From Hygrocybe punicea (taxonomy: Eukaryota > Basidiomycota > Agaricomycetes > Agaricales > Hygrophoraceae), in NCBI GenBank assembly GCA_963556145.1, contig OY744466.1, positions 4,650,001-4,714,000 on the forward strand: 64,000 nucleotides of DNA, in the 5' to 3' direction. Shown here one piece after another: positions 24,675 to 50,406 of the stretch (the stretch's first letter is position 1; each line of letters starts with the position of its first letter). The notes under the pieces are model-generated. The model was not told where the DNA came from and ran no database searches. It worked only from the letters and a program-made list of their open reading frames with translations. Made by a program: the position numbers and the translations under genes.

Positions 24675-24679
24675 TTTTC

Positions 24680-26706: not shown

Positions 26707-27297
26707 GTCCAACCTCCTGGCACATCGCCGGTAAAAGTTAACATCTTCGCCGACGACCCACTTCCTTTTGCGTCATGCGAGAACACTTGCAAAAATGCCT
26801 CCGCTGAACCGCAACCCATTATTGTTCCCGACCCATATGAGACCTACCTCATGAGTCTCTCACCGGGCGAAATTCCTGAAATCCTTACCGTCGCAAAAGA
26901 ATCGCACGCTCTACGTGCCGTTAATTTACTCGTCGACGGACAAGAACAAGTTGGTAGCATCATTGACCCTGGTTCTCAGATTGTTGCAATGTCGGAAGAC
27001 GTCTGCCATCAGTTTAGCCTTCCCTACGACCCGGCGATTCGTCTCAATATGCAGTCGGCGAATGGTTCGATTGATCAGTCCCTGGGTCTCGCGCGGAATG
27101 TTCCTTGTAAAATTGGCGACATCACACTTTTCCTTCAGATGCATGTCATCCGTGACCCCGCGTACCATATTCTCCTGGGACGACCGTTCGACGTACTAAC
27201 GGAAAGCGTTGTCAAGAATTACCGCAACGAAGACCAGACGATTACGATACGCGATCCAAATTCGAACAGATCGGCGACAATTCCAACGTACCCTTGA
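26707..27297 (+). pseudogene. Aspartic protease of Ty3-B, separated from gag by one TGA
   Basis: In frame with gag after the TGA at 26704. The active-site region is IIDPGSQIVAM, a DPG in place of the usual DTG/DSG, followed by the ILLGRPF flap-side motif typical of retroelement proteases. The frame stops at 27297, and pol continues in another frame. The single stop could be read through, but a CGA-to-TGA mutation fits the decay seen downstream. The DPG motif suggests reduced activity (inference); Ty3-C keeps DTGS. Confidence 0.75.
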
Positions 27298-30200: not shown

Positions 30201-30950
30201 GTTAACCACATTCGCATCTCCAGCTACAATTCCCACACAAACGGTCTTGTGGAACGACCACACTACGACGTTCGACAATCTCTCTTCAAAGCTGCGGACG
30301 GCGACCAGTTTAGATGGGCCAATGTGACGTACTCGGTATTTTGGGCCGAACGTATCACTATCCGACGATGAATGGGCTGCTCACCTTACTTTGCAGCGAC
30401 TGGCGCTCATCCCCTATTACCACTCGACATCGTAGAAGCAACATACCTTCAACCCCCACTGGATTCAGTCCTATCCTCTACAGACCTGATTGCGCGACGC
30501 GCGATCGCACTCCAAAAACGTAGCGACGATATTAATCGCATATACTCGCAAGTTTACGACGCTCGCCGGAAAGCGGCACAACGTTTCGAAAAGCAACACG
30601 CGAAGACGATTCGCAACTTCGATTTCAAAAGCGGTGACTTAGTACTCATTCGCAACACACAGATAGAGAAAGCGCTAAACCGGAAAATGCGCCCGCGGTA
30701 TCTTGGTCCCCTCATTGTTATTTCGCGCAACTTTGGCGGCGCTTACATTCTCTGCGAACTTGATGGATCTGTCTTTCACCGACCAATCGCAGCGTTTCGA
30801 GTAGTCCCCTATTTTGCTCGCAGTTCAATCTCACTCCCGCCGCGCTTCCTCGATATTCCCGCGCAATGACTAAACGAACTCGAAAACACTTCCGACGACG
30901 ATCAACCTCCTGAAGCACAGGAACCCGGTTCTGATGTCGACGACGATTGA
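27294..30950 (+). pseudogene. Pol of Ty3-B: RT, RNase H and integrase, with five nonsense codons
   Basis: One continuous frame from 27294 to 30950. RT spans about 27960-28640 with FDLYVGYDER, LPMGWTNS and YIDD (28452-28463). RNase H is about 28900-29330 with AVDTSY and the LSRR end of the fold. The integrase has an H-x-x-x-H / C-x2-C region (29770-29900), a TDNGPALIKS active-site motif, and a C-terminal GDLVLIRN...YLGP domain. Stops interrupt it at 29664 (TGA), 29913 (TAG), 30117, 30369 and 30867 (TGA), each at a place where Arg (CGA) or Gln (CAG) would fit. The frame ends in an acidic tail at 30948. It is -1 relative to the protease. The element cannot make a full pol. Confidence 0.9.
29482..29521 (+). 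promoter_or_regulatory. Candidate central polypurine tract in Ty3-B pol
   Basis: A TGACT...AGTCA short inverted repeat followed by atttcagtgaggaggaa is nearly identical to the segment ending at the 3' polypurine tract (32660-32697); the 17-nt block atttcagtgaggaggaa is perfect. It lies between the RNase H and integrase regions. Central tracts used as second plus-strand primers are known in lentiviruses and Ty1. Use here is inferred from the duplication only. Confidence 0.5.
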
Positions 30951-31276
30951 CTGAATTTCTTTGCTTCTCTCATTTTTACACTTATCGCTTATACCTTGTT
31001 TTTTTCTTTTATTGTAGCACGAGATTCAAGTCGCGATAAAAGCGAGACTTTTGTCGCGCAAGACTTCGTCTTTGCGGGGTTTTACGGCGATGATGATCTA
31101 CTGAGCCTTTCCCCTAGATAAGTTTATATTTGTTTCTTCCACTTCTTCCGCTTCCTGTGGCTTTTTTTTTCGATTCGAGAGCAGACAAATTATTATAATA
31201 CATATATGAAAACAGCTAAAAAGGTTTTACATATATAACACAGATGGTGCGCGCGCGTTTTCGCACCTTCTCCCAT

Positions 31277-32556
31277 TTACTCCTCATATTCGCCGTACTC
31301 CTCCTCCTCGTCCTCCAGCTGCGCCAGCTCCTGCCTCATTTCGGTTTGCGCTCTCACCCACACCACGACCCGTTCTTCGATCACCACGATCTCTTCCCGT
31401 AACACGCGTTTCCGCGCTTCCACGTCCATGACCCGCACACTTCGTGGTGGACGGGTACCAATATAGGCTATGATTGTCAGTCAGCGCGTTCAATACCCTG
31501 TCGTTTTAGCGACTTACCTCGGGGGGGCGGCTGGTTTTTCTCCCTCTCTTTCCCCTTATCCACCTGTGCCTTTCCCTTGTCTGCGCAACCTTTGCTGGAA
31601 ACCGGCTTCCTCGGCGTACTCCGCCCGCGTTTCCTCTGCCCCATCCGGTTCACCCCGTTCCACAAGCATCCTTGCTTCGCGTCGCGGCACCTCCTGCACC
31701 GCGGGTCCTGCTCGTCGAACTCGCAAACGACGACGGCTGCCCTCGCTGCGTGGCAACGATCACACTACGAAGTTTTCATGAGTACAGACGAATGGTAAAG
31801 TTTGACTAGTTACTTACCTCGCCTTGGACATCGCGAAGGTCCTTCCTGGGACCGACCCTCCTGCGCTTTTTCGACGGCCCCCCCTGCCCTTCGTATTCCG
31901 TTTCGAATCCTATCTCCTCTTCCCCCTGCGAGCCCGCTTCCGTCTCGCTATCCCCGTCCCCCTTGTTCGACCCCATCATCAACCTCGCCATTTCGTCCCG
32001 TGTGATCTCTTTGCACAGGAACCGCGCATATAGGACCTTGGCGCGTTCCTTTTGCTCCGCAGCTCTGTCCGCAGCCTCCTTCACCAACCTGGTCCACTCG
32101 ATCTCGGCCTCACGAATCTTCTTCTGCTCGGCTTTGTGCGCCTCGCGCGCTTTTTGCTCCGCCTCGGCTTGCTCCTTTGCCTTCCTTGCATCTTCTCGAG
32201 CTTTCTTCGCCTTGGCATGCAACCTCGGGAGCAAAATCTCCCCGCCCCATTGCAACGCCTGCTCGTCCTCGATGAAATCCAACACCGCAACAGCGTCCCT
32301 CCGCATCTCCTCGACTTCCTCACTACTCTCTATCGGCCCGGTTGTTTGTTCGAACTCGAGATAATTGTACTGTTGATCAAAGGTAGTCAGCGAAAAGGTT
32401 GGCGCAGTTGCGATGACTTACCAGGAGTTCTTCGAAATCCTGTCCCCACGCGATCCACTGTTCCCCGGAAGCACCCTCCGCTGGTTTCGCATCCGTATGC
32501 GTCTTGAGGGCCTCAAAGGCAGCGGCGACGAATTCGGCCATCGGGTGTGTCATCAT
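31277..32556 (-). CDS. Antisense accessory gene of Ty3-B: coiled coil plus Zn2Cys6-like cluster
   Basis: Exons 32556-32422, 32369-31818, 31764-31518 and 31467-31277 join in frame across three GT-AG introns (49-53 bp) to give 374 residues. The N-terminus is a short helical domain. A long Lys/Glu/Ala coiled coil follows (AKKAREDARKAKEQAEAEQK region), then an acidic linker and KKRRRVGPRK (likely nuclear signal). Next is a six-cysteine cluster spaced C-x2-C-x8-C-x8-C-x2-C-x6-C, a basic stretch, and an acidic C-terminus. The order of parts, the position next to the 3' LTR and the antisense direction match the Ty3-A gene, though the sequences are well diverged. This frame has no stop codons despite five in the neighbouring pol frame. 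The function is unknown. Confidence 0.75.
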
Positions 32557-32685
32557 ATGGATTGGTGGTGAAGATCGAAGACGAAGGTTAGCAAACATCG
32601 ACGCGTCGCTTCTGTTTAGAAGTCAGACTCGCACGTGACTTTCCCACGGCCCACGCGATTGACTGAGGACAGTCAAGATTTCAGT

Positions 32686-32697
32686 GAGGAGGAAAAA
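32686..32697 (+). promoter_or_regulatory. Polypurine tract of Ty3-B
   Basis: gaggaggaaaaa immediately precedes the 3' LTR start at 32698, the expected position of the plus-strand primer. Confidence 0.85.
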
Positions 32698-34543
32698 TGA
32701 TACGCAGTCTCTCCCTTTGGGCACGGAATCTCTCATATGGTCAATTCTACTTTTCCTACGACTCTTCCGCAGTCCCGCGTACATGCGAAACATCAGCGCG
32801 CCGCCTGCGACTTGCGCGACTTACGCCGATTGACGCGCGCGTGACCGTGACATCTTCGCTGTATCTTAACCGCGCGACCCGTTCTTAATACGCTGACACA
32901 CGACTGTTAAACACGTCCTACACGTTCAGACACCGAGTCCGATACCAGAAATGTAATTCATCCGGTTTATCTTCGTCTTTTCGCCGACTTTCATGTGATA
33001 TTCGCCGTTATTTCAAATCCTTCGCTATTCCTTTCCCGTTTCGTCGCTTTCATGCAATATTTCGCTGCATTTCTATTTCACTCATCCACCCTTTCCCCCT
33101 ATCCCTTTAGAATATAAAAAGTGTCCTGTAGTAGAAAATATGCGAAGAAGAACCCAGTTCTCCCCTCTCCACTAGTTTGCGGCTTAAGTTTTAAAAGGAT
33201 AGTGTTGCCGAAGTTCAGTTCGGTCCGGTTCCGAGCCTTTTTGGCGGAACCGCGAACTGAACTTCGGGTCCGGTTTGGCGCATGGCCAAACCTGGACCCG
33301 GACGGCATTGAACCGTCTCGCCGCGTTCGGTCTGGGTTCAGACCGCGTCTGAACCCAGACCGAGGTTGGCTCACCCCGTGAGCTCCGTTCTCCTCGCGAA
33401 TGGCAGGCACGTATCAATTGATACGGCGCTACACTTCGCGAGGTAGTTGGGCTGCTGGCCGTCGTGGTTGTCGTTGCCGTTGTTGTTGCCGCCGCTGGTG
33501 GTAGTGGTGGTGGTGGTGGTGGTGGTGTTGCAGCTGTCGTGCATCCATTGCTGCCGGCGCTGCTGCTTCTGTTGCTGCTGCCGTTGCTGCCAGTGCTGCT
33601 GCTTCTATTGCTGCTGCTGCTGCTTCTGCTGTTGCTGCTGCTGCTGGCCGTTGCCATCGTCGTTGCCTGGTTGCCATAGCCGTTCCCATTTCTGTTGCCG
33701 CCGCTGGTGGTGGTGGTGGTGGTGGTGGTGGTGTTGCAGCTGTCGCGCGTCCGTTGGCATTGGGTTGGCGTTGGCATCCATCTTGTGCCAAGATGGGTGT
33801 GGCCGCGACGTGGTCGCGGTCGAGTTCCCTGTCGCAAATGACATTAGTAAAGTTAAGAAAAGCTTGAAACTGACCTTCGCGTTGAGTGTTGATGTTGTGT
33901 TGCGTGTTGATGTTGTGTTGCGTGAAAGCTACACGGTCACGGCCGGTCACATGATACCATTTAACACGAAATAGTAAGTCAAGAAATACGAAAAACAAAT
34001 GAAATAAATACCGTAAAAATAGCTGCGTTCGCGGTTTGGACGCGGTTTGGAGCCGTTCAGGAAATCCGGCGGGCCTTGAAACCCGGAACTGAACCCGCGG
34101 TCCGGTTCAGCACTTGGCTGAACTTAGACTGAACCTCGGGTTCGGTTCGGGGTTTGAACCGGGTTCGGCTAGGTTCGGAACCGAACTACGGCAACACTAT
34201 AAAAGGATCTAGTCATTCTCACTCAAATCTGCATCTCTCCTCATCGCGTACTCTCCGCTATCGTGACCTAAGTCGTAGCGCAGAACCTCCGTCTCGTCGC
34301 GTCATCACCGCGTATCGCGCTGTCATCTAGGACACCCAGCTAAGCCTTCCGATCCTTGTTTATCACTGCATTGTGACATCGCGTTGTCTTGCGACTCTTC
34401 GCGTTTGTTTATTTTATCGCGCATATTAGCGCGCACTATCGCGTTATTGTCGGGAGTGTCCCCAAGTCTCGTTCGCACCTTTGCGACGTTTTTCATCATT
34501 TATTATCTCTTTATCCGGGGTCATAGACGTGGAAACCATATCA
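32698..34543 (+). repeat. Ty3-B 3' LTR, interrupted by a hAT element
   Basis: Matches the 5' LTR; 1846 bp minus the 1000-bp insertion and one 8-bp duplication leaves 838 bp. The last base of the 5' copy's CGTATCA end reads CATATCA here, a CpG transition. Confidence 0.95.
33200..34199. mobile_element. Non-autonomous hAT-like element, 1000 bp
   Basis: The ends TAGTGTTGCCG...CGGCAACACTA are perfect inverted repeats, and subterminal gttcggttc-type repeats extend inward. Flanks are the 8-bp duplication taaaagga (33192-33199 and 34200-34207). An 8-bp duplication and a TAGTGTTGCC-like end fit the hAT superfamily. There is no transposase gene. The interior is rich in CTG/GTG trinucleotide runs and holds a hairpin with 17-bp arms (33327-33363) around a cgc loop. 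It is younger than Ty3-B because it lies within its LTR. Confidence 0.9.
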
Positions 34544-34547
34544 ACGG

Positions 34548-36059
34548 CCTTGTGATTGGAGCACTGTGACCTCTGATACATGATCATTGATTTAGCATTC
34601 ACGAAATTCACAATTCGATCAATACCTCTTTGGACTCCAGGGAAGCTGCCAGATGAGCATGATAAGGTGCATCCTCAACCATATAGCCTTGTCCATCGAT
34701 AAGCCCAACGTCGTCATCAGGCTTCCGCATGTTAATCTGCTCAGCTTTGAAATTGCCATCGACGACGATGCTGGGCCTGTAAAGCCACCTGTTTCCCTGT
34801 TTGGTGTGGAACTACATGAAAGCTGATCAGAATGACCCACTGATGCGGTCTATCCATCCAGTTCTGTGGAAGATTTATCCCTGGCTGGGGACATGCAGGG
34901 CAAAACAATGCCAGATCGCCATTACCAGGCTCCCTCTCAGTGTCATGCCCAAAGACGAATTGTTTCTTGAGGTGCAAGTATCGCCACTGTCTTGACACCC
35001 TCATTAGCTCACGATAACGATCCTGAACACCATAAGTCAGTACTCCGTTCTGTATGCACAATGTAACAAAACAACTAGTATATCACGAACTGGCAATGTA
35101 TCTGGAAATGCATTGGAAGACAGTCTCCTTAACTTGTTATAAAAGTTGTTTGCAGACGTTTTGCACTCCATCGAATCAATGTAGAAATGATCCAGGAGCT
35201 GGAAAGTGAATGCTGACGACGGCTGTTTTGCTGTTGCAGGATACAAATGCATTCGAAGTAGTTGAATATCTCGAGTGGGGGCATCTGGGCAGGAGCACCA
35301 TCGGATTTGACGTCGGCAAATTCCATTCGTATGAGTGACAGTTATGATATCTTCCTCGGCGTGAACTGCCAAAGCCGGATCCAAATCGTCCTCCTCACCA
35401 CCACCTGACATAAGAACATCATGCAGATATGTATCTTTGACAGATGGCTGGGGGCCATCTTTTCTGTATGACGGACAATCGCCTCCACCATGGCCAAGAC
35501 GCATGACCAGGCCAATCGTATTAAGGTCATGTTTTAGGAAACATCTGCCGTTCCATATCTCAATTCTGTGGAATGGATTATGAATGTGTGTCTGCAAACA
35601 ACAACGCTGGCAGAACGAAGGGCAACCATAGCAATCGGGGCAACGAATGGTGATATCGGCCATCAGACATGACTGGCATGTAACATCGGAAGGGGGGGCC
35701 TCAGATGATAAGAGTTCGGAGAGGTATTGCTTGTGAATCGCTTTCCAGGCTTCCATTTCATCATTCTGTGTCTAATTGACATGCAATCAAAATCAAGTCG
35801 TACAGATAATAGTTGTGTCAACCTTTCCACGCTTATTGCAATGTCTCCTTGTCTGAGGGTCCTCCTCTTCCACAAACGACGTTGAGGGCAAGGGAAGATC
35901 TTCACTCCTATGTGATTGTTTTACAGGACTTGGCGGACGAATAACTGGACGAGCCTTGACTGTCTTTCCACCTTGTTTCTTTTCCACCACCATAAATTCA
36001 ACCTCTCTGGCAAATTCCTTTTTTTTTCCCGACCGGGAAATGACTTTTGATTTCGGCAT
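34548..36059 (-). pseudogene. KDZ-2 transposase, N-terminal part with CxC2 cysteine cluster
   Basis: Begins at 36059 with a basic stretch (MPKSKVISRSGKKKEF). After a GT-AG intron comes the CxC2 cluster (C-x2-C...C-x2-C...C-x2-C near 35690-35590, then PFHRIEIWNGRCF and LGHGGGDCP). The domain continues through WRYLHLKKQFVFGHD and CPACPQPG to SIVVDGNFKAEQ (about 34750), which contains the first catalytic Asp of KDZ enzymes. The frame then passes an intron and is broken at the Ty3-B insertion within CSNHKA. The remainder is at 21785-23836. It is a pseudogene only because of the insertion, as far as I can see; I did not check every exon. Confidence 0.85.
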
Positions 36060-36202: not shown

Positions 36203-38026
36203 TTACAAATCCGATGAACTGTCAGAATCTGATACCATAGTTGGGGCCTCAAACCAACCGGGGACCAATTTAACATCACCGGATGAACCCTCCTTTCCTT
36301 CCAATACAACCCTTTCCAGTGCATCACCCTGAATGCAATTACGAACAGCTTGCCTGCGCAACACCCCCTGGAGTTCCTGATGGAGCGTGGGTATCCGCCC
36401 GTCTTGCCATGGATCTTTGGCAGCTCTGATAGCAATCTCGTCACCCAGCATGATGTTCATCATTTCTATTGGGTTTTCTAAGAAGATTCGGAGGAAGTGC
36501 AGCATGTAGATGCTGCAATCATCAAAATTCGGCTGGACAGGTACCTGAAAACAAACGTTCAATTCATTCGCAACACGGAGGTTAGACGTGGTTCACCTTG
36601 GGGGTGATTCTCTTGATAGGTGCCAGCTTTTTCACCTGTCTGGTGTTCTTCGCAATGCAGGCTAGCCACGCATGAACCAGGGATATATCTTTTTGATGGT
36701 GTGCTGGGGGCAGTGAATCGAGAACAAATGTTACGCTAACCGACGATGAGTAAGTTCAATGCAAAGCTGAAATGGATAACTACGTGTGTAGTCCATCAGG
36801 AGGATTTTCTAACAAACATGCAGCAGGATTTGCCACGATAATCAAATACCAGTGGTCACTGATGGTGAAGTGAGATGTTGCCTTCACAAAAACTGACTAC
36901 ACTCACCCAGTGGGCACAGGAAAGACCAAGTATGGGAGCGAAAATATGTCGATTGCCTTCGTCCACCTCTTCAAACTCTTCACCCCGTTCTTCCTATGAC
37001 CAGATTTAGAGGAAATGAAGTTATATGAACAACCAAGCAACGTGCACCTCAGTTTCTCCATGAAAAAAGTAATGAATATGTGTATGTTTGCCGGCAACTC
37101 CGGCTGATGGATTGCTGCTTGCTGCAGAGCGTAACTGAAACGGGGAATAAGCTACTGCACTGGAGGGTTGAAATGTACCTACTGGGTACCGAAATTAATC
37201 AGTTCGTCATCTAGCCAATCCTTTTCCAAACGTTGATATGACGTCCACAGAACAGCACCCCGCTCTGAGTATTTTGCAACAGTACACGTGTTTTCAAACC
37301 TAGAACACCTGAGGTGAGTGACGGGCCTGGCCATGGCAATGTGATGTACATGACCGCATCTGGCCTTTCATTCAACTGCAAAAATCGGCCATTGGTTTCG
37401 ATGTCATTTCTGTTGAAGTAGAGATTAGTTGTGGTATGATGAATGTGTGATACTCACTGTAAATACTTGATGCTACTTTCGCCCAGTGTACTGGTGAGCA
37501 AACTGAGCAAATCCGCATACATATCTGATGTCCAGGATGCATGCTCGTTGTCGAAATAAATGCCAATTTGATGTTTTGAAACAATCTCTGAGTATCAATT
37601 GCAGTCACATGTAAGCTTATTGAAATGGTGGCGTACCATTGTTCTCTCTGCCTAAAAACATGTATGTGGCTTTATCCACATGCCGAGAAACAAGCACATG
37701 CAATACCAAGCCGCGTATCTGCTCTTCATTTGGTTTGGTGGCCTACAAAATTACTTGAATATCAAGGGTGGGCTGTTGAAGACTGACAATCACCTGGCAA
37801 CTGACAACATCGCATTCCACCAATAGTTGCATGGTCACAGAGCTGTCCTCTGTCAAAATACAACAAACACTTGTATACGACAGTGAGTGATGATTAGGAT
37901 GCTGAACATGATGACTTACCATGATCCTTTGCATTCAAACTCAACAGATGTGGTCCCTTCTGGAGATTTGTGGTAGGTGTTTCCACCAGAGACCGTGAAA
38001 AGGACGGGGAGTAGGAGAGATGGCAT
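36203..38026 (-). CDS. Ulp1-type (C48) cysteine protease
   Basis: A multi-exon gene upstream of and co-oriented with the KDZ-2 transposase. The catalytic region reads NIHIFITFFMEKL (about 37080), LKRWTKAIDIFSLPYLVFPV, then DHWYLIIVANP with the catalytic His at 36854-36852. LDSLPP follows with the Asp at 36719-36717, and NFDDCSIYMLHF with the Cys at 36518-36516. This is the His-Asp-Cys order of SUMO/Ulp proteases. The N-terminal exons (from 38026) show no known domain. The stop follows a Ser/Asp tail (SDSDSSSDL). It is presumed to cleave SUMO or a ubiquitin-like modifier. Such protease genes are known to accompany KDZ elements in fungi. All three catalytic residues are present. Confidence 0.8.
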
Positions 38027-38145
38027 ATTCGATTGATGTGAGGTTATGCACGTGATGGTTGAGAACAAAGAGAGCTGTTCAATCATGTGATGCCAGGTCA
38101 CATGTAATGTGGACCCGTGACATCACATGTGTGATGTCACGCCGC
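38027..38145. promoter_or_regulatory. Short bidirectional promoter with inverted TGTGATGTCACG sites
   Basis: Between divergent starts at 38026 (protease) and 38127. It holds cacgtgat (38049-38056) and the inverted pair cgtgacatcaca-tg-tgtgatgtcacg (38116-38141). The same 12-mer pair recurs around 39105-39141. The core TGATGTCA is one transition away from the bZIP site TGACGTCA (inference). Confidence 0.5.
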
Positions 38146-38870
38146 TGTTGGACACATTTAACGCAGTAGGGAAATTGGATAGCAAAGAAGAGGTAATAGC
38201 AGCGCTGCACAAATTGCACATCCTCTATGAGATTGCTCATTCCCCACGTAGCCATTATTCTATGTTTTCTAGTAGATATGATACCCTAAAATGGGCATTT
38301 GTTTTTATTTGGTCAGAAATCACCTTATTCCATCACATCCTGAGTCGCACCATCAACGTTGGCCAAGGTAATTTCTCTTGATTCCAACACACTACCATCT
38401 TGCTGCATGGCAATAATCACTGGTACAGCAGCAAATGACAGCACCGTTGTATCCTTGGTAGGGCGCTGTACCAGGGAAATGTGGAACGCTGCATTTACGG
38501 CGGTTCTTGTTGACGTGCGGCCTGGTAAAGCTGCTGCTTTTCACGACATTGAATGCTTCCCCCGGTGTGTTTACAACATTACACCGACCCCACTTTTGAT
38601 TGTTTAGGATGTGCCTGAAATCTATTCGTGTCTTTTCATGCGGCCGTCACCGAACAAGAACAATATTCTGTCCGATGGCTCGGCATGATGCGATCGGAAG
38701 ACACAGGCCATGCACAAACACCGTTCCTGAAAGGAGGCTGGCCACACATGTTTGGTGTGGACGAAAATGTTTGTATGCGTATGGGATATTTCGTTCACCT
38801 AGCCACTAGGTTTGTTGCAGGTGTGCTACATCCCTTGATTGTCGGTGAAACCTGTGAACATTAATTTTCA
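38127..38870 (+). CDS. Hypothetical protein, unknown family
   Basis: The first exon starts at 38127 with MCDVTPLLDTFNAVGKLDSK. A GT-AG intron (about 38366-38430) leads to AANDSTVVSLVGRCTREM and DVRPGKAAAFHDIECFPR. Beyond about 38570 the path is unclear: a second small intron and two possible frames exist, one of which contains WPHMFGVDENVCMRMGYF. I recognise no domain. Exon-like composition and good splice sites argue for a real gene, but the 3' end is uncertain. Confidence 0.4.
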
Positions 38871-39345
38871 CCAACCGCCCACATATACAGTTGAAATCAA
38901 GGCAAAGGTGTTCATTATTCGGCAGCAACGCTGTAATTAAACGTCTGTGCAACAAAGTGCCATTCACAAGCTTCCTGCCCAGAGCATGAATTTCAAATGT
39001 AACAATATACAGTACTGACGTTTCCGTAACTACGGGCCTTTGCAACACTGCCATTTACGACTTTCCTAGCCAGTATATGAATGCACACAACAACGAGTCA
39101 CACCTGTGATGTCACGTTTGGACGTCCAAACGTGACATCACGGACGTGACTTGTCACCATCCAAACTTGGCCACATCATGTGAGTCAAGTCATTTCACGT
39201 GATGAAAACCAACCACGTTTGTCACGTGAACAAATACAACCAATCACAAGCGCTGATTGAATTCTTTTTCCCATCCTTCGTTGTTTTCCCCCTCATCATT
39301 GTACATCCCACACTGCAAGATTGTTGTACCGGGCAACAATCTCGC
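38871..39345. promoter_or_regulatory. Intergenic region with a 36-bp perfect palindrome and two TCACGTGA boxes
   Basis: 39106-39141 is a perfect palindrome built from gtgatgtcacgtttggac and its complement. TCACGTGA boxes lie at 39195-39202 and 39222-39229, upstream of an ATG near 39350. Two imperfect direct copies of a tgcaaca...gccatt...cctgcccag segment (about 38948 and 39038) precede them. It probably drives the exon-repeat unit and perhaps the TET/JBP gene. Confidence 0.5.
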
Positions 39346-39518
39346 ATTATGGGATGCCACGCACTTTAGGTTACATATCATTCTTCTACCCGAATGGTGA
39401 GTGGTTTGTTATGTCTCTGCTGAATGCAATTCACTTAGAATATTCATAAGTGACTGATTGTTTGTCACTGCGATTGATCTTCTACAGCTTCCTGCCAAGG
39501 TTTCCACATGCATTAATT

Positions 39519-40302
39519 GTGGAATCAGTACGTGCCAAACCGATGGTGGCCGGTCCTCGGACATGGGTGCTTGCTGCTGCCAGTCAACCTGGAATGAAAA
39601 GGTGGGTGAATCTCACCGATTTGCTTGCCAGGCAACCTCCTTGCAACAGGCCTGGCAGTATACCCATTTGCATCCAAGGTGTGTGTCTTCTCATTTTAAT
39701 ATTGCGCTTTTAGTAGTGATTCACTTTCATTACAGCTTCTCTTTCCATCATGTTTTGTGGCGGTGAATAGGCTTACTGACAATTTTACTGCGTTCAGATA
39801 AGTTATCCATGAGCGCGAGTTGTGGCATCAGTGCGTGCCAAACCGGTGGTGGCAGGTCCTCAGACATGGGTGCTTGCTGCCGCCGGTCAACCTGGAATGA
39901 AAGGGCGGGTGAATCCCCCTGATTTCCTTGCCGGGCAACCTCCTTGCAGCGGGCCTGGCGGTATTCCTGGCTACAACTGAGGTGTGTGTCTGCTCATTTT
40001 AATATTACCCATGTTGACAGGTTGACTCACAGGTAATATACGTCGTCTTATAGTAGTGATTCCCTTTCATTACAGCTGCTCTGTCCATCATGTTTTGTCA
40101 CGGCGAATAGGCTTGCTGACAATTTTATTTATTTCAGACCACTCCTTCATAGCACAAGTTGTGGCATCAGTGCGTGCCAAACCGGTGGTGGCCCATCCTC
40201 AGAAATGGGCGCTTGCCGCTGCCGGTCAACCTGGAATGAAAGGGCGGGTGAATCCCCCTGATTTCCTTGCCAGGCAACCTCCCTGTAGTGGGCCTGGTGG
40301 CC
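39519..40302 (+). repeat. Three tandem exon-plus-intron repeats encoding a similar peptide
   Basis: Copies at about 39519-39660, 39822-39963 and 40161-40302 encode, in one frame, variants of SVRAKPVVAGPQTWVLAAAG followed by QPGMKGRVNPPDFLARQPP. The intervening intron-like segments (for example 39713-39797 and 40050-40136, ending in ttcag) are also conserved, so whole exon-intron units were duplicated. Copy 2 has a TGA just before the shared block. It could be the 5' part of the TET/JBP gene or a separate gene. From 40320 to 40633 I see nothing further. Confidence 0.6.
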
Positions 40303-40633
40303 TTGTTGACGTCAAGAAAAGTAAGTCTTGCTGTACTTTTGACTATTCTATCATTCACCAAACGGCACAGGTATCAATCAGCTTATAAATGTGCATGGTC
40401 TGTATATGTATATACACTGAATCTGCTCGGCATTGAAATTTTTTGTGCTATATTGTGTGTTATATCATAGTTGGTCGTTCTTGTGACATGGCGAAATTGC
40501 TGTATGCAGCAAATTATTAAATGCTAAAAGTTCTAACCATAATAACATCTTATTAAATTATACCGCCTCGAGGCCACCATGTGTACTAAAACTGACCTTC
40601 CCAATTCTCAACCAATCTCACTTCTCAACCATT

Positions 40634-42128
40634 ATGTACGCCGACAGAATCCCCTCAAAGAATGCACAATCCAAGGCAATGGAAGCCTCGCTTTCCGTCA
40701 ACATGAAAACAAAGGATTGTGGTCTGGCTCCAAATCTAAAGAAACATATGTGGACGAGGCTGAGAAGAATCCTCTCAAACACTACATCGTATTATAGGAA
40801 GTCGGGCATGCACCCTCCGAAGTCTCCTGTAGAGGAATGCAAACGGCTGAGGTCAGATCCATGCTGCTTCAATGTCATATCTTACATGTTTTGTAGATCA
40901 CGTTTGATGAAGCTGAGGGATCAGCTTCCAGTTAGCAAGGTCTTGGGAGATTCGGCCCCAGATTGCGAAACATTCTCCAAGTCGGACATGGTCTCAGAAT
41001 CCGAACTGGAGAGGGTTCTCCTCACTGTGGCAGCCGCGATTTTGAACCCTAGTACGTTGCTGCCATGAAAGTCGGCATATTTAGACTGACATCTTGCCTC
41101 AAAGTAATTTTGCCCTTGGATGCGAATAGACTGGCAAATCGAGTGAAGAATATCAAGGACACTTCGGATGCTGACAATGAAAACCTACTCAGGTTTTTTC
41201 AGGAGATTCACATCGGACATGTGAATGAACCAGCTACAATAATCGACATGTGTGGTTCAATTTTGGTCTGGTATCTACCTGATGTTGTAACTCCAAGACG
41301 TATTGTGAGTCACTTGCCCCCCGGAAATATGGTTTTTGACAGTACCCACTGCGACACAGGAGGAATTGAATGTCAGTGCTGAAATGATAACCGAAATTCT
41401 GGAAGAATCCTATTCAGAGTCCCTCAAAAAACTTGAGAAAGGGAAAGATCCACAATGGAGGAAAGATCCAAACATTTTCTTTCCACCTCCAAACCCACGA
41501 TTTCACCCAGGATCAGTGGATTTCGCCGCAGCATGGTTTGCTCAGGGTAGAGAGGTAACACCTTTAGTTAGTCGTCTGTTTTACATGAGCTGACCGCCTG
41601 TTTTTTCAGCGACTTACCGATAGGTTGATCACGTCGACAACTCTTCGAACAACTGAAGCCACCATGTGGATGGCTGCAATCGAACCCAGCGAGCTGATCT
41701 TCAATGCAATTACTGTGTTAACCCATCAGTCATTGTACACAGCTGGCCTTCTGGCTGTGACGAAAATCCGGGACGGCGAAACGATCGAGAACGTGGAAAC
41801 ACACGAAAATGCTAAGGAGTGGACATCTGTTTACACTGGAATCGCCGTTATTGTTAACAGGATTACAACTCGACACAGAGATGCTGGAGGGTGTCCAGAA
41901 TGGTATGATTTGCTGGCGAGTTGTGGGACACATACGAACGCGGAACTAGCCATCCCTGAGTTGGATGCTATGTTCTATTATTCGCCAGGAACTGTCGTTG
42001 AAATTTGTGGCAAGGTTCTCAGTCACAGTGTAGGCAGATGGGAGGGCAGTGAAAGAATATGCATGGCGCATTATATGCGAAACATGGTACATGACCGTCT
42101 CAACATTGACAAGCCCACCTGGAGCTGA
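40634..42128 (+). CDS. TET/JBP-family 2-oxoglutarate/Fe(II) dioxygenase
   Basis: Exons 40634-41051, 41105-41304, 41360-41554 and 41610-42128 join in frame across introns of 53-55 bp (about 443 residues). The last exon carries the oxygenase core: RHRD (Fe-binding His 41874-41876, Asp 41880-41882), WYDLLASCG, YYSPGTVVEICGKVL, then SHS with the distal His (42024-42026), 50 residues after the first. An Arg (42054-42056) ten residues later is positioned to bind 2-oxoglutarate. The HxD...H...R order and spacing match the TET/JBP family, which oxidises 5-methylcytosine or thymine in DNA. Family expansions linked to KDZ transposons are known in Agaricomycetes. The N-terminal region is basic with no known DNA-binding domain. 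Ends MRNMVHDRLNIDKPTWS. All key residues are present, so it may be active. Upstream exons may be missing. Confidence 0.82.
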
Positions 42129-42587
42129 CACAATGTGTTTGCAAGGGAGATGAATGCCGAGTTTCGGGCATCACAGGAATGGAGATGGAATTAGCTATTG
42201 TGCCAAGGGAGATATCATCCTAACGTAAAAGTACGACGGCTACCGTTGCATGCTTTGTACGACTGTAGTCAGAAACCTCTGTGGAACTAAATCTCATTAT
42301 CCTCATTCACGGACGACGAAGGCCTATGAGTTTCAACTAACAGATAGCTAGACAGTGTTAGACAGTGTTCGGAGAATTTCCATGGCTTTACATTGATAAC
42401 TCTGTCACATTGACAACTCAGTCAATTCGAAATGTGTACTTAAATGTGGCAATTCACGTGATGTGGTCACACGTGATCACAGTAAACCGTGACGCATCAT
42501 TTTTTTTGTTACCTTCTGCACCCTTATCATCTAGCCTCAGCCTCTCTTGAATTGCTCTCAGATACACTCGAATTGAACATTTTGGCA
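42129..42587 (+). promoter_or_regulatory. Promoter region of the JmjC gene with CACGTGA boxes
   Basis: tcacgtga (42454-42461) and acacgtgatcac (about 42469-42480) lie 105-135 bp upstream of the ATG at 42588. The rest of the interval has no gene. Confidence 0.45.
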
Positions 42588-45500
42588 ATGTCGTCATCAG
42601 CAAGCACCTTGGCGCTGTCAATCGCTTCTCTACATGCGTCTGTCATGTCTGGCAGTTATTTCCGAAGCATGAATGTGTTCCAGGACTTCCTGTGGGTCAA
42701 TGGCACGCCTCTTGCTGAAGATTCACTTGAGAAGGCTATCGTAACCTTAATTGGCAATCAGTCTGCTCTAGGAAACACACAGTCCACCTTGGCTGTGATG
42801 GTGCGTCAAATCTCGCACCTTGTAACATTGACGGTCAACTTGTCTGCTAGGCCCTGGCAAAGCAATTGGATTATGTGAATCCCACAGGTGAAATCTCACG
42901 TAAAGCCCAAACCATCCAAGAATACCTCTCTGCTGATGGCTCTGCTATGCGTGATGTGGCAAGGTGGACTACTGTGTACCGGAATGACCTCCTGGTAGCG
43001 GCTCACTCAATCCTTCGCTATACCCTGCTCAATAAGCTCATGGACGCTGTTGGGTTGCCTCGTCATCCAAGTTTCAAAGTAATTCGGAGATCAGCGAAAC
43101 CAGAGATGAGCGAGAAGTTGACCAAGGTGAGTTCACCATTCACATTTGGGCAGACGTTTTAGGTTGACGTTTGCACACCGTCTTGAAGCTCTACAAATTT
43201 CTGAGAGACTGGAGTAAGCCGATCACGAAGCTTCGTATGACATGCAAAAGTCTATTAATCACGCAACAAGATCAAGAAGTGGTGGGTGTTTCAGCCGTGG
43301 CAGTGCCACAGAAAGTGGTGTCCAGTATGGACACCATCCCTATCTTTGCAGTCGCTCTCCCAGCACACTTGACACCAGCCCAAAAAGAAGTAGAAATGAA
43401 CATCTGGATCCTTTACCATGCATCTGTCAACCTCGAATCCTCCGACGTCAACCATATCCTCCTCAATCTAGAGCTTCTTGCATTCTCATTCACGTGGTTT
43501 GGCCAGGTATGTGACGTATGTCCTATATGAAACGTGTGTCAGATTTTGTACAAAAACAGGGCAACTCATATGTAGACTGCGACTTCACAACATGGGTGGA
43601 GAAGCTACAGAGGTTGGGATTGCGTTACAATCACATTACGCCTGCCGCAAATAAATAATTCACATGGTTTCAGGATGGCCAAGAGTGTTGATCTACCGTT
43701 GCAAGACTCATTTGTCAATGCCCTCACCACCAAGTCTTTCGGAGGTTTAATGTATGATCGGATGAGAAATCTATTCCACCTAAGCCTCACACTGTCACCC
43801 ATAATTACTCTTCTCCCACGACGTTTCAATCATGAATCTCATGCACGGCCATCTCTCATGGCAGTGAGTCCATTATTTGTGCCAACTTGGACGTAGTTGA
43901 CATAAGGAAAAGATCACGTTTGCCTTGGGCAATGAAAGGCCTCCATTCCTTGCCAAAACGGAGAGGGCGCTTTGGAGGGCCATTACAAGAGTATGTTTAG
44001 GATCTTCGGCGATGCAGGAGCTGAATGTATTCCTCCAAGAATACGATTTGTTGGAGGACAGCGTCCAGGGAACGGAACAGGACTTCAGTTGGTTTTGTTT
44101 TGACAGTACGCCGCCTGTCTCTACATTTATCGCTGGGACTGACAACAGATGTTGCAAGATAAGGAAGTGGATGACCTGACCAACTCTGCTAGTCAGCTTA
44201 CGGTGGCAACGAAACAAAATGTTCCAACAGACCCCAAGGCAAAGAATGACAAGCCTGCGTCAGGCAACCCTCTGTCCAGCGATGATGAACCGCTTCAATT
44301 GAAATTAACAAGGAAGAAGAGGGGTGGACCATCGAAGGAGCTTGCTTCAGGTGGACAGAGCTCCATGTTGACCCGAAGCCAGGCCAAAATGTTGGACAAG
44401 GTTGGGGACTCTTTGAAAGGCAAGGAGAAGCAGAAGGCAGAGAAAGTCCAGAAGGAAGAGAAAGTCGTGGTTGCGCCGGGGAGGTCCTATCGGAGGAAGA
44501 AAAGATCCACTCGCTGGTCGACAAGAAGTTATCCCAAGTCCAAGAAACGTGATGATCTTGAGGATGAAGATGACGATGATGACGAGGATGACTATAAGAA
44601 AGCGCCAGAGAAAGTGAACGTGATCATCGACCTTACCGGAGATGTAAGTGATTCAAGAACGTGTCATTTGTCATGAATGAATATTTTGATAGGATTATGG
44701 GGAACCTGATTTGCTCAGCCATCCAGCACCCATGGTGTGTCTTTTGTTGTTCGATAACGTGCCACTGATGATTCATAAAGCGAGCATCAGAGGGTGTTCA
44801 TCTCACGATGTATGATGGTGACGCTGTACACGAACCCGTTGAACATGTGCACTATTCACCATCCGTCGTTGTACATTGATGTCTGATTTTTGTACCGTTT
44901 GATTGTTAACTGGTAAGCACGATACAGGCAAAAGTGGAACATGCATTGTTGCGGGAAACATATGAAATGATCCGATCCAGTTACATTGATGGGGTTCCTC
45001 CACATCGGCTGCCCAGTGCAAGAGAACAAATGTATGATCCTCATGCATCATGTGTGTTTGTGGTGGAATGGAACATCTTCAAGTTGATGGATGCTGCAAC
45101 AATTCAAGGAATCTTTCGTCATCGTCACATCCTCGTGCTCAATGCCCCTGTAGAAACAGTGGAGTTTGATAGGGAAGGTTTGGAGACATTGGGGTCTTTG
45201 TCGTCCATTCGTTCAGTGCAAGGTCCGTTTCCAGAGTGATGTCTGGGCATAGCGACTAAAGTGCCTTTGTTAGTTGCTGAATTGCGATTGGTGCCTAATA
45301 TCGAGAATATGAACAAACCTGGCACATTGGAGACATTATATCAGCTTGCGCTTGACCCTGACAATGAAAGGGTTTTCAATTTCCTTGACCTTCCCATGGG
45401 TCATATGACGTTGGACCCACCTCCAAAATTTCAGTGAGCAACCTTGTTTCGAAGATTGAACACGAGATTTACCTGTCTATTCGTGAAAAGGTCCTTTTCA

Positions 45501-47737
45501 TCATCTGAGGTTGCTTGGCACGAAACCCACGGCTGACCAGGGTTTGTCCGCGAGCAGCCTTTAAACGACGATTTGGCTTGGGGAACGGCAGCGACAGCTC
45601 GAGCCATTTCTTGGACACACGTAGATGATGATGGCTTTGGCACGGTGGTTATTGTCAGGACTGGCGCAAAGTACTGGGTCCTCATGAGGCCTCGAAGGGA
45701 TGCTGAATGGGATCGCAAGGCGGGCAATCTTGCGACTAACAAGGCCTATCCTCAGGAGTGGGAGCCGAGAAAACATAGTGGGAAAGGCTTGTGGGAAGCA
45801 GAAGGATTACTGCTCACAAAGGGTTCAGTGCTGTAAGTGGGAATATATTTCGTGACAACTCGGATGTGTGCTGAAACACACAGTTACATGAGGCCGTGCA
45901 CCCCACATTATGTCCTCGGTGTGGAGCACTCCATTGTGAATGGGCGTCATCTCTATGTGACATCAACTATATGGGATACCTGTTATGGGATTATCCATAC
46001 TTTCGTGATGAGTCATACCATCACAAACGCGGAGCATAATGTGACACGTACATTTCTGCGCCGACTTCTCACCATGTGGATGGAGTACTTCATGGGGAAC
46101 CACGAATCATCATGTGAGCTACTTTGGGCGAGGTTTACAAATTCCTGAAGATTAAAATGCTCACTGCACAGCTACTGTCTTCACCAAGTCTCATATGCCC
46201 AAGATCGAAACCGAAGACGGCTTCCTCGACCTTGTGATTGTGGGAAACCTGATTGAGCTTGCGGATATCATCAACAGGAAGTTCTACACCCATACCATAT
46301 CGGCTGACATTCATGAGGAACAGAATATTGCAAGATGCAGATATAGACGTTTCCAAATCTGGTTTGCGGAACATTTTGTTGTCTTCATGGAAGACCACTG
46401 GATCAGCCCCTCTTACATTTTCCAACGAAGTCTTTTGGAACTATCTGCTGCAATTGTTGGGTATAAATGGGACAAGGATGGGGTTGTGAAGGCACCAGCA
46501 CATTGCACAGCCAAAGCTGTTGAGTCAGTGGTCCACCGACATTTTCAAAACGATTGGCCAGATTTGGTGCCAAAGCTGAATGAGCTGCTTCAGATCCCAC
46601 CATCGGAATTCTTCTGGACCGGCCCCAAAATACACATTCAGACCCGTCCAGTGGAACCCATCAGTCCCATTCTTGTTGAATGCTTAGATTTTCCACCTCA
46701 TCCAATCCTGCTCGTCAACGCAACTACTGGTGAAGGCGAGGTACAGGATGACACAGATACACGGGAAAAGGTGAAAGACAATGAGCGTGACAAAGGGGAG
46801 GGCACTGATGGTGAGGAAGAGGCGGATGATCCATCTAGGAAGGTGGGAGATTTAGTGGATGCAGCTGGCGAAGAGGTAGCCACAGAGGAAAACCAGGATC
46901 CACCTGCAACGGTTGGATGTGCAAACGACATGGCTGTGGACACTGAGAGGGAAGAGGATCCACCTGTAATGGTGGGAAATTCAGCCGACGTGGCTGGGGA
47001 AGATGCGGGAGAAGAAATGGACGTCGCTGGCCCGAATGAGGAGGATCCACCTGAGCAGGTGGGAAATTCAAATGACGCAGCTTCGTGGAATGAGGACGGT
47101 CTAATCATGCCCCTGGGTATGTCAAATGAGGAAGATGTAGACCGTGACGAGGGGAAGCAGCAGGAAAAGAAGGGGGGGGAGGAGGGCGCGGTGCAGGGCA
47201 AGGGGGTGGAGGCGGGGGAGGTGCAGGAGGAGGGGGAGGAGGACGAGGAGGGGGAGGAGGAGGAGGAGGGGGAGGAGGAGGAGGAGGGGGAGGAGGAGGA
47301 GGACAGGGAGCTGCAGGACGAGGAGGGGGAGCTGCAGGAGGAGGGGGAGGAGGAGGAGGGGGAGGAGGAGGGGGAGCTGCAGGAAGAGGAGGAGGAGGGG
47401 GAGCTGCAGGAAGAGGAGGAGGAGACGGATGGGGATGGGGCAGAGGAGGAGGACGAAGAGGAGGAGGATCGAAATGAGATGGTGGGGAAGTTAAATGCCC
47501 AGAGTGTGGACAGTGACGAGGGAGAGGATGACGATCAAATGGACATCTCATCTGGCAGTGATGCAGTGTATAATGATTTCGATGGATCACCCCAACCCCC
47601 GACACCCCCTGTGAAACGTCCTTGGAGGGAAGACTCAGGTACGATAAATTGCCTCAACAGCTTGTATATACACTGATATGATCATTCACACAGATTCACC
47701 AATACGTTCCACAGACCTGAAACGCCGTCGTAAGTAG
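42588..47737 (+). CDS. JmjC-type dioxygenase with SIM-like motif and acidic tail
   Basis: A long gene with about a dozen small GT-AG introns. The N-terminal helical region (MSSSASTLALSIASLHASVM) leads through ALPAHLTPAQKEV and a basic disordered stretch (44150-44610) to VNVIIDLTGD (44614-44643), a classic SUMO-interacting pattern. The JmjC core has ISWTHVDDDGFGTVV with Fe-binding His (45618) and Asp (45624), GAKYWVLMRP, and LYMRPCTPHYVLG with the distal His (45906). A Glu/Asp-Gly low-complexity tail (about 46740-47570) ends in KRRRK. JmjC proteins oxidise histone or other protein/nucleic substrates; the target is unknown. An in-frame TGA at 45534-45536 lies between exon-like blocks and may be a real nonsense change, so this could be a recent pseudogene. 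Exon borders around 45230-45570 are uncertain. Confidence 0.7.
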
Positions 47738-48167
47738 CCGGGAGGATCATATCATTAATACTGCTTCCTACTCATGTATATTCCTGACATCGCAATGCAT
47801 CATCTGCCTCCTCTGCTGTTAAATGTATTCCTTGTAATAAACACCGAACCATTGAGAGGCATGGGTAGAGGAAAATGTTATGTCACGTTGGGCCTTGCAC
47901 AAGTGACATGTCACAAGTATTATATATTTATGATTTATTCCACATATCACCTTTTTAGGCACATTCAACAAAGCCTATTTCCGCCGTGTAGAACATCGCA
48001 AGGGTTGACTGCTTGTGGTAATGCAAATTGTGAGCTGCATCCCCACAAACAGGATAGCTTTACCCCGCATTTTTACCAGCATTTCTTGAGCTGTCCACCT
48101 TCCCTGGGCGTCTTTGTTGTGCAACATCACTCTCCCATGCCTCGTTTGTCTCCCTCTCCTGCGCCTC
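47738..48167. other. Intergenic, convergent gene ends
   Basis: Between the 3' ends of the JmjC gene (plus) and the coiled-coil gene (minus). A tgtcac-rich stretch (47880-47920) is present. No gene is supported. Confidence 0.4.
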
Positions 48168-50246
48168 TCATGCCACCCTCTCCTGGGCGTCTCGTGCCTC
48201 TTTCTTCCTGGCCTCCTCCCGGCCCTTTCGTGCGTCCCTCTCCTGTGCCTCTCGTGCCTCCCATTCCGCCCTCTCCCGCGCCTCTCGTGCCTCCCTGTCC
48301 TGTGCGTCTCGTGCCTCGTGTGCCTCCCCTTCAGCCCTCTCCTGGGCCTCTCGTGCCTCCCTCTCCTGGGCCTCTCGCGTCTCCCGCTCTTGTACTTCTT
48401 GTAACTGTCTTGCCATCTCTCGGTTCTGTGCTGCTACCCGTTCTGCTTGCTCCTTTTGCTTTGCTTGTCTCTCCATCTTCTTTTTCGTCCACAGAAGCTT
48501 CAACGTCGATGTATCGTCATCCATCTCGCTGTCGCCACCACGTCCATCAAAGCTACCACTACTTGCACTCTCGTCACTCCAACTATCGTCGCCCTCTTCG
48601 CTACTGACTGCTTTCTGTTTTCCCTTGCTGGAATTGGCGGCATTTTCTGTTTTCTTCTTGGGGTGGACTGTCTTTAATGCTGGAACATTCGATTTGGATC
48701 TGCGAGGTCCGATAGCATTCAATTGTGCAGCTCCCATAGCACTCGATTGTGCAGCTCCGGCAGGAATAGATGTCGTTTCCCTACTGGAGTTTGATGGCGC
48801 CGAACGATCGGTCCTGGCCAAAGCAGCAGCAGCATGGAACTTCTTCTTTTTTTGCACGAATGCATTTGGTGCTCGCTGGTCGGTCTTCAGGACGGTTTTA
48901 AATCGGAATGGTTTTTCACCGAGTTTCTGCCGTTGCAACCAAAATTGGTGGACGGTCCGAAGTTCATCGAGTTTCATTTTCCACGGTTCCCATAGTTCTA
49001 CGTGAGAGGGAAAGTAGATGTCCTCGATGTATTGGTTTCGATTTTGTCCAATTTTTCCCCATGGAACAGCGACGACGCTGTTGTTGCACATCTGACCTTC
49101 AAATGAATATGAGTACAGTAAGCTTGGCCAATGTCGAGGTACGTACGATATGACATGGTCATCAGTGATCTAAACATGTTTCTTACATCGACCAATGACA
49201 TAGTTGACACATTCGGTACCATAGGAAAACCGTCCTCATCGATCTCAAGCTTGAACGGCAGGCTTTTGTCATATCTGGTCATTGGACCACCATCATCATC
49301 TTCACTGTCGGTCTTTGCTCCATCGGATTCATCTGGAACACATTACATGGGAAAGATGGAACAATGGCTGATCGTACCGTCATGATTAAAAAGGGACCCC
49401 AAATGTTCATCCCATTTGGTCCAAATGTCATCCCCGTTATTTTTGAAGACGCCGATGAACTTCTTGTGTACCGGGGCCGGTGTCTCGAACCTCACAGGAA
49501 GGGAAGATAAGTACGTGATTGACACAAAGCAGGAATCGACCCACTTTCCTTTGGTTACAGTCCCATCTTCGTCTTCATATCCCACCAACATGAATATTTT
49601 TACTCCCATCTGCTCATCTATGTCCTTCATAAACTTCATCGCCGTCTTACCGAAATCTTTTGCTGCTCGGCTGGATAAGGTAGAAGATTAGCATCATGCA
49701 GACGAAAGAAGATTATTAGTACCGTCGTTTGACTTCCAAGGGTGGACCTTGCTGGTTCCAGGCGTCGGCAAGAGCTTCAAATTCTTGTTTTTTCTCTTCG
49801 GTCAAGGAACCGTAAATATCACTCCACGCTTTGCCATAGTGCTTGATGTAGCCGGGCTTTCCTCCGGTTTCTCCAGACAGCTCCACCGTCCTAGCGTCGA
49901 TTTCCTTGTTCATCTTTTCTCTTGTAACCAACCTTGCATTCCACTTCTTTGTATATTTCGGAGCATCCTCAGTGTCGCTCTCCAATTTTGACCGATGATT
50001 GTGGTACCAAGTTTGAATTTTCTGTATTCATGGTATAATGCTGTTAGGCTTATCTGAAGGGTAGTATTAGAATATACAGACCTGTTGCATATTTGGGGGC
50101 CATTGTGTGTTGGTTTGTTGTGCCGATTTTTTTAAAAGTTTCCTGATCCCTTTCAGGACACGAATACGATCTTCACCAGTGGATCTCCTAAAATCAGGAT
50201 AACCGTCCTCGAGGATCTTAGTAAATTCTGGGGTGATCCACTTCAT
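48168..50246 (-). CDS. Coiled-coil accessory protein of the KDZ-2 cluster
   Basis: Starts at 50246 (MKWITPEFTKILEDGYPDFR). After GT-AG introns it reads KIQTWYHNHRSKLES, then ARLVTREKMNKEIDARTVEL and SDIYGSLTEEKKQEFEALAD, a block I believe recurs in many Agaricomycete hypothetical proteins. A middle domain has VGYEDEDGTVTKGKWVDSCF. The C-terminal half is Ser/Lys-rich, then a long Arg/Glu/Ala coiled coil with repeated REAQE and REARE units (48170-48480). About 690 residues. The KIQTWYHNHR stretch suggests a small DNA-binding fold but I cannot name it. It is transcribed toward the JmjC gene. Internal exon borders are approximate. Confidence 0.6.
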
Positions 50247-50360
50247 TTAGGCAAAAACTGAGGAGAATGAAGGCAAATGTCGTTGTCTGGAACAAAGGCA
50301 GAACGTCGTTGTCTGGAACAATGGAAGAATGCCTCGTGGTGAACATGAGGTGATGACAAA

Positions 50361-50368
50361 TCACGTGA
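50361..50368 (-). promoter_or_regulatory. TCACGTGA box upstream of the coiled-coil gene
   Basis: tcacgtga 115 bp upstream of the ATG at 50246, the same octamer found near 39195, 39222 and 42454. Confidence 0.45.
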
Positions 50369-50406
50369 TTGATGGCAACAAATAGCCACCTAACCTTCCC
50401 ACACTA

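Follow-up and report, generated by a model that had tools for sequence, protein, structure and literature searches.

We report here that the genes of a transposase, a protease, two oxygenases (one of them identified by remote similarity) and a coiled-coil protein, neighbours in a 64,000-nt stretch of Hygrocybe punicea DNA (contig OY744466.1, positions 4,650,001 to 4,714,000; hereafter the window), are parts of one ~20-kb KDZ-family DNA transposon. This single delimited element, of which we found at least 16 end-to-end copies, couples a TET/JBP 2-oxoglutarate DNA oxygenase (TET) to a predicted JmjC-type oxygenase (JmjC), a Ulp protease and a candidate DNA-binding protein. The genome searched comprised 92.2 Mb in 42 contigs, the window being C8:4650001-4714000; introns, repeats and the type of TET would all suit a mushroom-forming fungus. 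A preliminary description of the window had placed a transposon-borne chromatin-editing cluster at 36203..50246; the genes that it named are all present, but the interval is too narrow, as the element begins at 21032 (Table 1).

The left edge of the element, starting with CA, was read in the window itself, and the right end, ...CTGAAAGGGCTC-3' (terminating in GGGCTC), in the sister copies L032, L034 and L036. Homology to the window reached 50386 in all four sister copies read for this purpose (L029-L036); leftward, it extended to the left end region in L029, L033 and L035 and stopped at 37139 in L031. In L034 the right terminus lies ~0.9 kb beyond the stretch matching window 50247-50386, and none was found in the window after 50386. 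In copy C34b, the left and right ends form imperfect inverted repeats, 82% identical over 691 bp and built largely of the 44-bp repeat array.

Elsewhere in the genome, 16 copies run end to end between these common termini. Their ends were paired by eye around TET copies, so that selection required TET between the ends but made no demand on KDZ, JmjC, coiled-coil or Ulp matches. C34c came from an alignment, one right flank (L082), for which there was no left partner, was set aside, and the searches for candidate ends scored the best 40 of 315 and the best 40 of 318. A 7-bp target-site duplication (TSD) flanked 15 of the 16 copies (13 perfect, two with 6/7 matching positions), and one copy had none, whereas none of 240 mispaired flanks used as a control reached 6/7 or better (15 of the 240 involved the mis-cut left flank of C6b). 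Thirteen copies measure 17.9-22.0 kb; the other three (27.6, 32.0 and 53.9 kb) presumably hold additional insertions. Each of the 16 contains one listed KDZ, TET, JmjC and coiled-coil match, and 14 contain a Ulp match. Because the genes lie between common termini and 7-bp duplications, they were inserted as a unit, which bears out the linkage to one element that had been proposed before any terminal repeats were found. The outcome named in advance as fatal to that proposal, a KDZ transposase moving without TET and JmjC, is the opposite of what these copies show. The TET segment (40400-42400) has at least 39 further genome matches at 91-99% identity (40 of 69 candidates scored, window included), which places the gene set beyond chance.

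Two pairs of same-family ends lie ~7-8 kb apart (C34:6319464-6326619 and C41:3470789-3478615), with no TET, JmjC or same-family KDZ between them among the matches listed; these are probably internally deleted derivatives.

In the orientation of the element the genes run KDZ(-), Ulp(-), spacer, TET(+), JmjC(+) and coiled-coil(-). The genome-wide check for further copies of this order succeeded, and order and orientation proved nearly invariant among linked loci. For the linkage counts, loci were taken by hand from the listed matches for JmjC (54 of 209 matches), the coiled-coil gene (62 of 203) and KDZ (58 of 231), together with all 122 TET matches and 66 of the 68 Ulp matches (two second-exon rows merged); the random controls used assumed lengths for two contigs (C35, C41) and, in the 54-locus JmjC analysis, for a third (C3). 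With the nearest match taken within 30 kb, KDZ preceded JmjC on the opposite strand in 40/40 linked loci, as did Ulp in 29/29, the coiled-coil gene was downstream and opposite in 48/48, and TET was upstream on the same strand in 42/44. Within 15 kb, the 54 JmjC loci had a coiled-coil gene in 47 cases (random mean 1.4), TET in 41 (2.8), the element's KDZ in 28 (1.2) and Ulp in 25 (1.4). TET, KDZ and coiled-coil matches all lay within 30 kb of 37 of these loci, the remaining loci being incomplete. The genome as a whole contains 122 TET matches and at least 54 JmjC loci; for 56 of the TET matches, the nearest 15 kb include an element JmjC among the matches listed.

Table 1. Features of the element in the window (positions are those of the window)
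Feature	Position	Strand	Remarks
Left terminus 5'-CACACCTTACAG and sub-terminal array	21032..21675	.	44-bp TTGGCC-bearing repeats at 21202-21627
3' part of KDZ transposase gene	22080..23836 (lower boundary approximate)	-	L033 transposase match at 23261-23665
Long terminal repeat (LTR) retrotransposon, foreign to the element	23837..34543	.	Gypsy-type open reading frames (ORFs); LTRs TG..CA; ACGG at both edges
5' part of KDZ transposase gene, CxC2 cysteine cluster	34544..36059	-	Start placed from the L033 model
Ulp1/Ulp2-type (C48) protease gene, 12-exon model	36203..38086	-	Cys exon 36203-36544
Spacer separating Ulp from TET (divergent genes)	39093..40345	.	62-bp imperfect palindrome and tandem units
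TET/JBP 2-oxoglutarate DNA oxygenase gene, 5-exon model	40634..42128	+	Oxygenase domain 41787-42083
JmjC-type oxygenase gene (predicted)	42669..47737	+	N-terminal region, JmjC-like core, C-terminal region, acidic tail; frame broken by two premature stops
Coiled-coil protein gene, 5-exon model	48168..50246	-	N-terminal W-Y-x-N-x-R motif (predicted DNA-binding)
Last stretch common to the four sister copies read (L029-L036)	50247..50386	.	Homology between copies

The transposase is of the CxC2 type, as the preliminary description had it. Its CxC2 domain falls within 35037-35771 (-) of the window (expectation value, E, 1.3e-27), and the gene model of L033, in which the frame is intact, matched PF18758 (E 3.8e-41) and PF18803 (E 1e-26); a KDZ transposase with a CxC cluster, defined ends and a TSD places the element in the KDZ superfamily. 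In the window, the catalytic half of the gene (~22080-23836) is severed by a 10.7-kb LTR retrotransposon. Homology in L029, L033 and L035 passes from window position 34544 directly to 23836, so the retrotransposon, absent from these three, is an insertion in the window copy; its right LTR is itself interrupted by ~1 kb. L033 and L029 both have an uninterrupted KDZ frame (882 codons); here and below, KDZ, Ulp and TET frames follow the alignment columns of the window or of L033.

The Ulp gene encodes a C48 (Ulp/SENP) protease by its PF02902 match and catalytic residues. PF02902 exceeded its cut-off of 20.7 bits both in the window exon (25.2 bits) and in the spliced L033 model (35.9 bits, E 9.3e-9), and the His (SCAHW), Asp (LLMDY, aligned to FDS of Ulp2) and Cys (DDC) of the triad are in place, as had been claimed; the genome-wide PF02902 search gave 68 matches, the window's own copy not among them. 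Among solved relatives the catalytic region resembled Ulp2 (5lnb, E 3.6e-6, the alignment spanning the catalytic Asp and Cys) and SENP7 (~1e-4). Compared with these proteases, the Ulp here is a transposon-borne, predicted deSUMOylase. L033 keeps an open Ulp frame, whereas that of L029 contains a single stop, and the residue adjoining the catalytic Cys is Ser in the window and Gly in L033 and L029. The spacer that separates this gene from TET has its imperfect palindrome at 39093-39154 and its tandem units at 39480-40345, spaced ~300-340 bp; in the stretches fetched for 20 copies there were 2-5 units per copy, and three in 14 of them.

For TET, the PF12851 domain exceeded its cut-off (48.9 versus 34.9 bits), and the protein aligned with CcTet of Coprinopsis cinerea (PDB 7vpn, 8jkk), the sole solved TET relative found, at E ~2e-18 with the iron- and 2-oxoglutarate-binding residues (HRD, SH and R) in place; the full HxD...H...R set seen earlier is thus real. 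The present TET is AG-like solely through this similarity, and it differs from CcTet, which is reported to oxidize 5-methylcytosine (PMC12730594, in part), in being one of five genes of an element and in being predicted by homology. Its open frame spans 179 aa in the window versus 201 in most listed same-family copies. Of the TET frames in 20 copies, ten continue past the shared end and nine terminate earlier, two of these (L022 and L023) being frameshifted; that of the window ends at the last common codon, where the majority continues. In a further TET group, a Ulp match lies ~4.5 kb away on the opposite strand (C8:6297963, C20:54188 and C39:5904369); the similar TET locus C36:791626 had no Ulp match among those listed.

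The gene that follows TET is predicted to encode a JmjC-type oxygenase. It comprises a conserved N-terminal region (42669-44643), which gene prediction fuses with a JmjC-like core (~45486-46113) carrying H-V-D at 45618-45626 and a distal His at 45906-45908. In a profile-profile comparison the region matched a RoxA/4csw/NO66 profile with a probability of 77%, a score of 34.7 and E 2e-5 (hhalign E-values refer to single comparisons), with HxD, G-x-K/R-x-W and the distal His aligned; the controls scored 12.6 (reversed), 11.4 (TET), 11.3 (KDZ), 11.7 (coiled-coil) and at most 20.0 (60 column shuffles), and single templates gave 26.4 (RoxA), 16.2 (AlkB) and 15.5 (ManA). The JmjC templates were all of the RoxA/NO66/MINA (JmjC_2) kind, the one JmjC subfamily compared, from which the gene differs in sharing 19% identity over 91 columns, under every Pfam cut-off. 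NCBIfam, PADLOC and PDB sequence searches with the region gave no match, and, judged by position, none of the genome's 14 PF02373 matches belongs to a copy of the element.

The coiled-coil gene closes the set, as described before, at the right of the element. The W-Y-x-N-x-R motif near its N terminus presumably resembles a homeodomain recognition helix; it had no database match, and a PDB search with the N terminus yielded nothing significant. Database searches for relatives of JmjC and of the coiled-coil protein returned 2, 1 and 2 fragmentary hypothetical proteins.

JmjC is under purifying selection. Between the window and four divergent loci, the ratio of nonsynonymous to synonymous substitution rates (dN/dS) was 0.18, 0.14, 0.16 and 0.16 (two of the loci each required a stop codon to be skipped); the four loci compared with one another gave 0.26-0.47, at low dS. 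With values of 0.14-0.18 between subfamilies, JmjC is not a passenger. For TET, the ratio of nonsynonymous to synonymous polymorphism (pN/pS) over all sites was 0.43 within the family, and the odds of missense versus synonymous changes outside CpG were 0.47 (p 0.004, copies treated as independent). Differences from the majority in 20 copies were mostly C-to-T changes at CpG (365 changes, 0.0625 per site per copy), as against 0.0013-0.0023 at non-CpG C sites (CpG odds ratio 36.6). The CpG rate was 0.059 in JmjC (five copies), 0.059 in the coiled-coil gene (five) and 0.047 in KDZ/Ulp (four), and ~0.001 elsewhere. Decay of this kind, C-to-T and confined almost wholly to CpG, is what methylated DNA undergoes and constitutes a CpG-methylation footprint.

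The window copy is dead, because its transposase is split, its JmjC exons contain two stops and its right end is missing. Both stop sites are open in L030, L032 and L036, and L034 has one of the two stops. Directly right of the truncation point, at 50972-52097, lies an imperfect palindrome of ~1.1 kb (74%), which may be responsible for the loss of the right end.

A second KDZ family in the same genome, with a transposase mostly 54-59% identical to that of the element, also keeps company with TET and JmjC. TET lies ~2.4-2.8 kb from this KDZ on the same strand (among the best 150 of 429 matches), and the JmjC shares 35% identity with that of the element by blast (E 2e-86) and 47% in a spliced alignment. 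W-x-H-x-D, G-x-K-Y-W and the distal H-Y-V are conserved between the two families, as is the N-terminal region (E 4e-19). The order differs, JmjC being divergent from TET. In counts based on loci picked by hand from listed matches (22 second-family and 5 third-group JmjC loci, 23 second-family KDZ loci), TET lay within 15 kb of 12 of the 22 JmjC loci (random 0.9) and the second-family KDZ of 10 (random 0.2). A coiled-coil homologue, 35% identical, stands beside at least three second-family loci. A third JmjC group, 42-49% identical to the second family, was seen at C39:5498787, C39:5647770, C39:5733209, C35:3735723 and C8:2561729; two of these five loci have a Ulp match ~3 kb away.

A DNA transposon in a CpG-methylating host must keep its promoter and ends accessible, and silencing complexes commonly depend on SUMO. 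From the gene content we infer, as the preliminary description had suggested, a module that would escape silencing by editing SUMO and the methylation of both DNA and protein in combination; this reading gains support from purifying selection on JmjC, from the presence of JmjC in a second, divergent KDZ family and from the CpG footprint. We consider it probable, though well short of certain, that this is a KDZ transposon whose predicted protease, TET, JmjC and coiled-coil proteins jointly lift CpG-methylation silencing and so enable the transposase. The transposase would recognize the terminal 44-bp arrays and TET would oxidize 5-methylcytosine at the promoter and ends of the element, while the JmjC protein would remove or hydroxylate its target, either a silencing protein or a repressive mark on chromatin, and the Ulp protease would strip SUMO; the coiled-coil protein or the CxC2 cluster may recruit the enzymes to the repeats. 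Old copies would finally be methylated, CpG-mutated and invaded by other elements, the window copy being an example. More tentatively, the genes may form a self-targeted eraser kit, in which the element's own DNA-binding protein brings TET, JmjC and the deSUMOylase to the 44-bp end arrays, as an old, co-selected module of at least two deeply diverged KDZ families and a multi-enzyme counterpart of VANC outside plants; we hold this version less likely than not.

Several observations weigh against the joint lifting of silencing. CpG rates were alike at missense and synonymous positions of TET (0.059 and 0.065) and stood at 0.072 and 0.046 in the N-terminal part of JmjC, where selection within the family was weak (all-site pN/pS 0.83); single copies thus decay about neutrally at CpG, meaning that the kit fails to keep most copies unmethylated. 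The LTRs of the nested retrotransposon also differ mostly at CpG (12 of 17 differences), so the methylation footprint is not peculiar to the element. For 66 of the 122 TET matches, no element JmjC is among the matches listed within 15 kb, so TET also occurs without it; 10 of the 22 second-family JmjC loci have no TET within that distance, the coiled-coil homologue is near three of those 22 among the matches listed (a capped listing), and two of the 16 end-to-end copies lack a Ulp match among those listed. As for JmjC, the HxD...H residues pointed out earlier are present and a remote profile match accompanies them, but no Pfam JmjC model recognizes the region, even at E 10, and the AlphaFold model is unusable (mean pLDDT, the per-residue confidence, 29.7); the gene is accordingly called JmjC-type as a prediction.

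Other explanations fare worse. The accessory enzymes might serve the transposition reaction or the choice of target, not anti-silencing, with Ulp maturing or deSUMOylating the transposase, for example, and TET and JmjC conditioning donor or target DNA for cutting. Such a role would suit the position of Ulp, which in the window shares its strand with the transposase and lies directly upstream of it, and the fact that both always precede JmjC on the opposite strand (29/29 and 40/40 linked loci). We nevertheless regard it, and the example with it, as unlikely: the full copy C34c, with part of its Ulp region missing, has a 6/7 TSD (supply in trans would explain this), and Cryptococcus KDZ elements insert by way of a transposase with KDZ and CxC1 domains, in a paper whose text, as far as available, contains neither JmjC nor Ulp1 (PMC12810828). 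Distinctly less probable is that the oxygenases mainly reprogramme host chromatin and are retained by the host, through domestication or benefit, with the transposon as their vehicle. The abundance of the genes (a single genome with 122 TET matches and 54 or more JmjC loci) and the oxidized methylcytosine reported at transposons and retrotransposons in Coprinopsis and Laccaria (PMC12730594, in part) would agree with this, yet the 16 delimited copies sit between transposon ends, 15 of them with TSDs, and individual copies decay about neutrally, which is unexpected for genes maintained by the host. Plain host genes were rejected, the copies being located between transposon ends.

Transposons do capture host genes, and decayed copies are common here (9 of the 20 TET frames have an earlier stop), so TET, JmjC, Ulp and the coiled-coil gene could be passengers captured by chance and hitch-hiking. 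This is very improbable given the JmjC dN/dS between subfamilies, the order fixed in dozens of loci and the recurrence of JmjC, rearranged, with TET in the second KDZ family; for JmjC itself, passenger status is rejected by the dN/dS and the second family. A chance neighbourhood of separate repeats, with no single element, such as fungal DNA rich in repeats could produce, has next to nothing in its favour: other elements do adjoin in the window (a KDZ element at 12825-20831 and Gypsy-type elements), but 16 end-to-end copies share one gene set, 15 with TSDs, and the TSD pairs reject separate repeats side by side.

Elements with some of these features are known. TET+ Kyakuja DNA transposons of Agaricomycetes have been published, two Laccaria families having 7-bp TSDs and CA..TG ends without terminal inverted repeats (Kojima 2025, PMC12730594, in part). 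The present element likewise combines a KDZ transposase with TET/JBP and has a 7-bp TSD and a 5'-CA start, but its 3' end is TC in place of TG, it has long imperfect inverted repeats where those two families have none, and it carries three further genes (JmjC, Ulp and coiled-coil). In the main text of that paper neither JmjC nor Ulp1 nor the word protease occurs, and the literature searched, judged partly by titles and the openings of abstracts, contained no KDZ element with a JmjC, Ulp and DNA-binding set; Iyer 2014, cited for KDZ groups, lay outside the search and could mention these genes. Within that literature, the added JmjC-type, Ulp and coiled-coil genes appear to be new relative to the published TET-bearing KDZ transposons. 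Arabidopsis VANDAL elements are similar in being DNA transposons with an accessory gene and non-coding tandem-repeat arrays that face DNA methylation, and their arrays are bound by their VANC proteins (PMC10398659, in part). VANC is, however, one sequence-specific protein with demonstrated anti-silencing activity (same source), whereas several enzymes, predicted by homology, are present here, and the VANDAL transposase is unrelated to the element's KDZ.

The element bears on the question of whether TET genes carried by transposons have partners or work by themselves; selection on JmjC and a methylation-decay footprint are found on the same DNA. Its ends and genes are defined, and incomplete copies that arose naturally can serve as controls, which makes transposon counter-defence in mushrooms directly testable.

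Other elements accompany the transposon in the window. Gypsy-type ORF sets occupy 24712-30869 (+), inside the insertion that splits the transposase, and 56245-61817 (-). The separate 8-kb KDZ element at 12825-20831 has its KDZ domain at 14698-15051 (-), inverted ends of the CACCTGTGAAG..CACAGGTG type and a TSD of 8 bp, AGTTACAT, as read by eye; a paralogous repeat at 8525-8560 preserves the empty site of this element.

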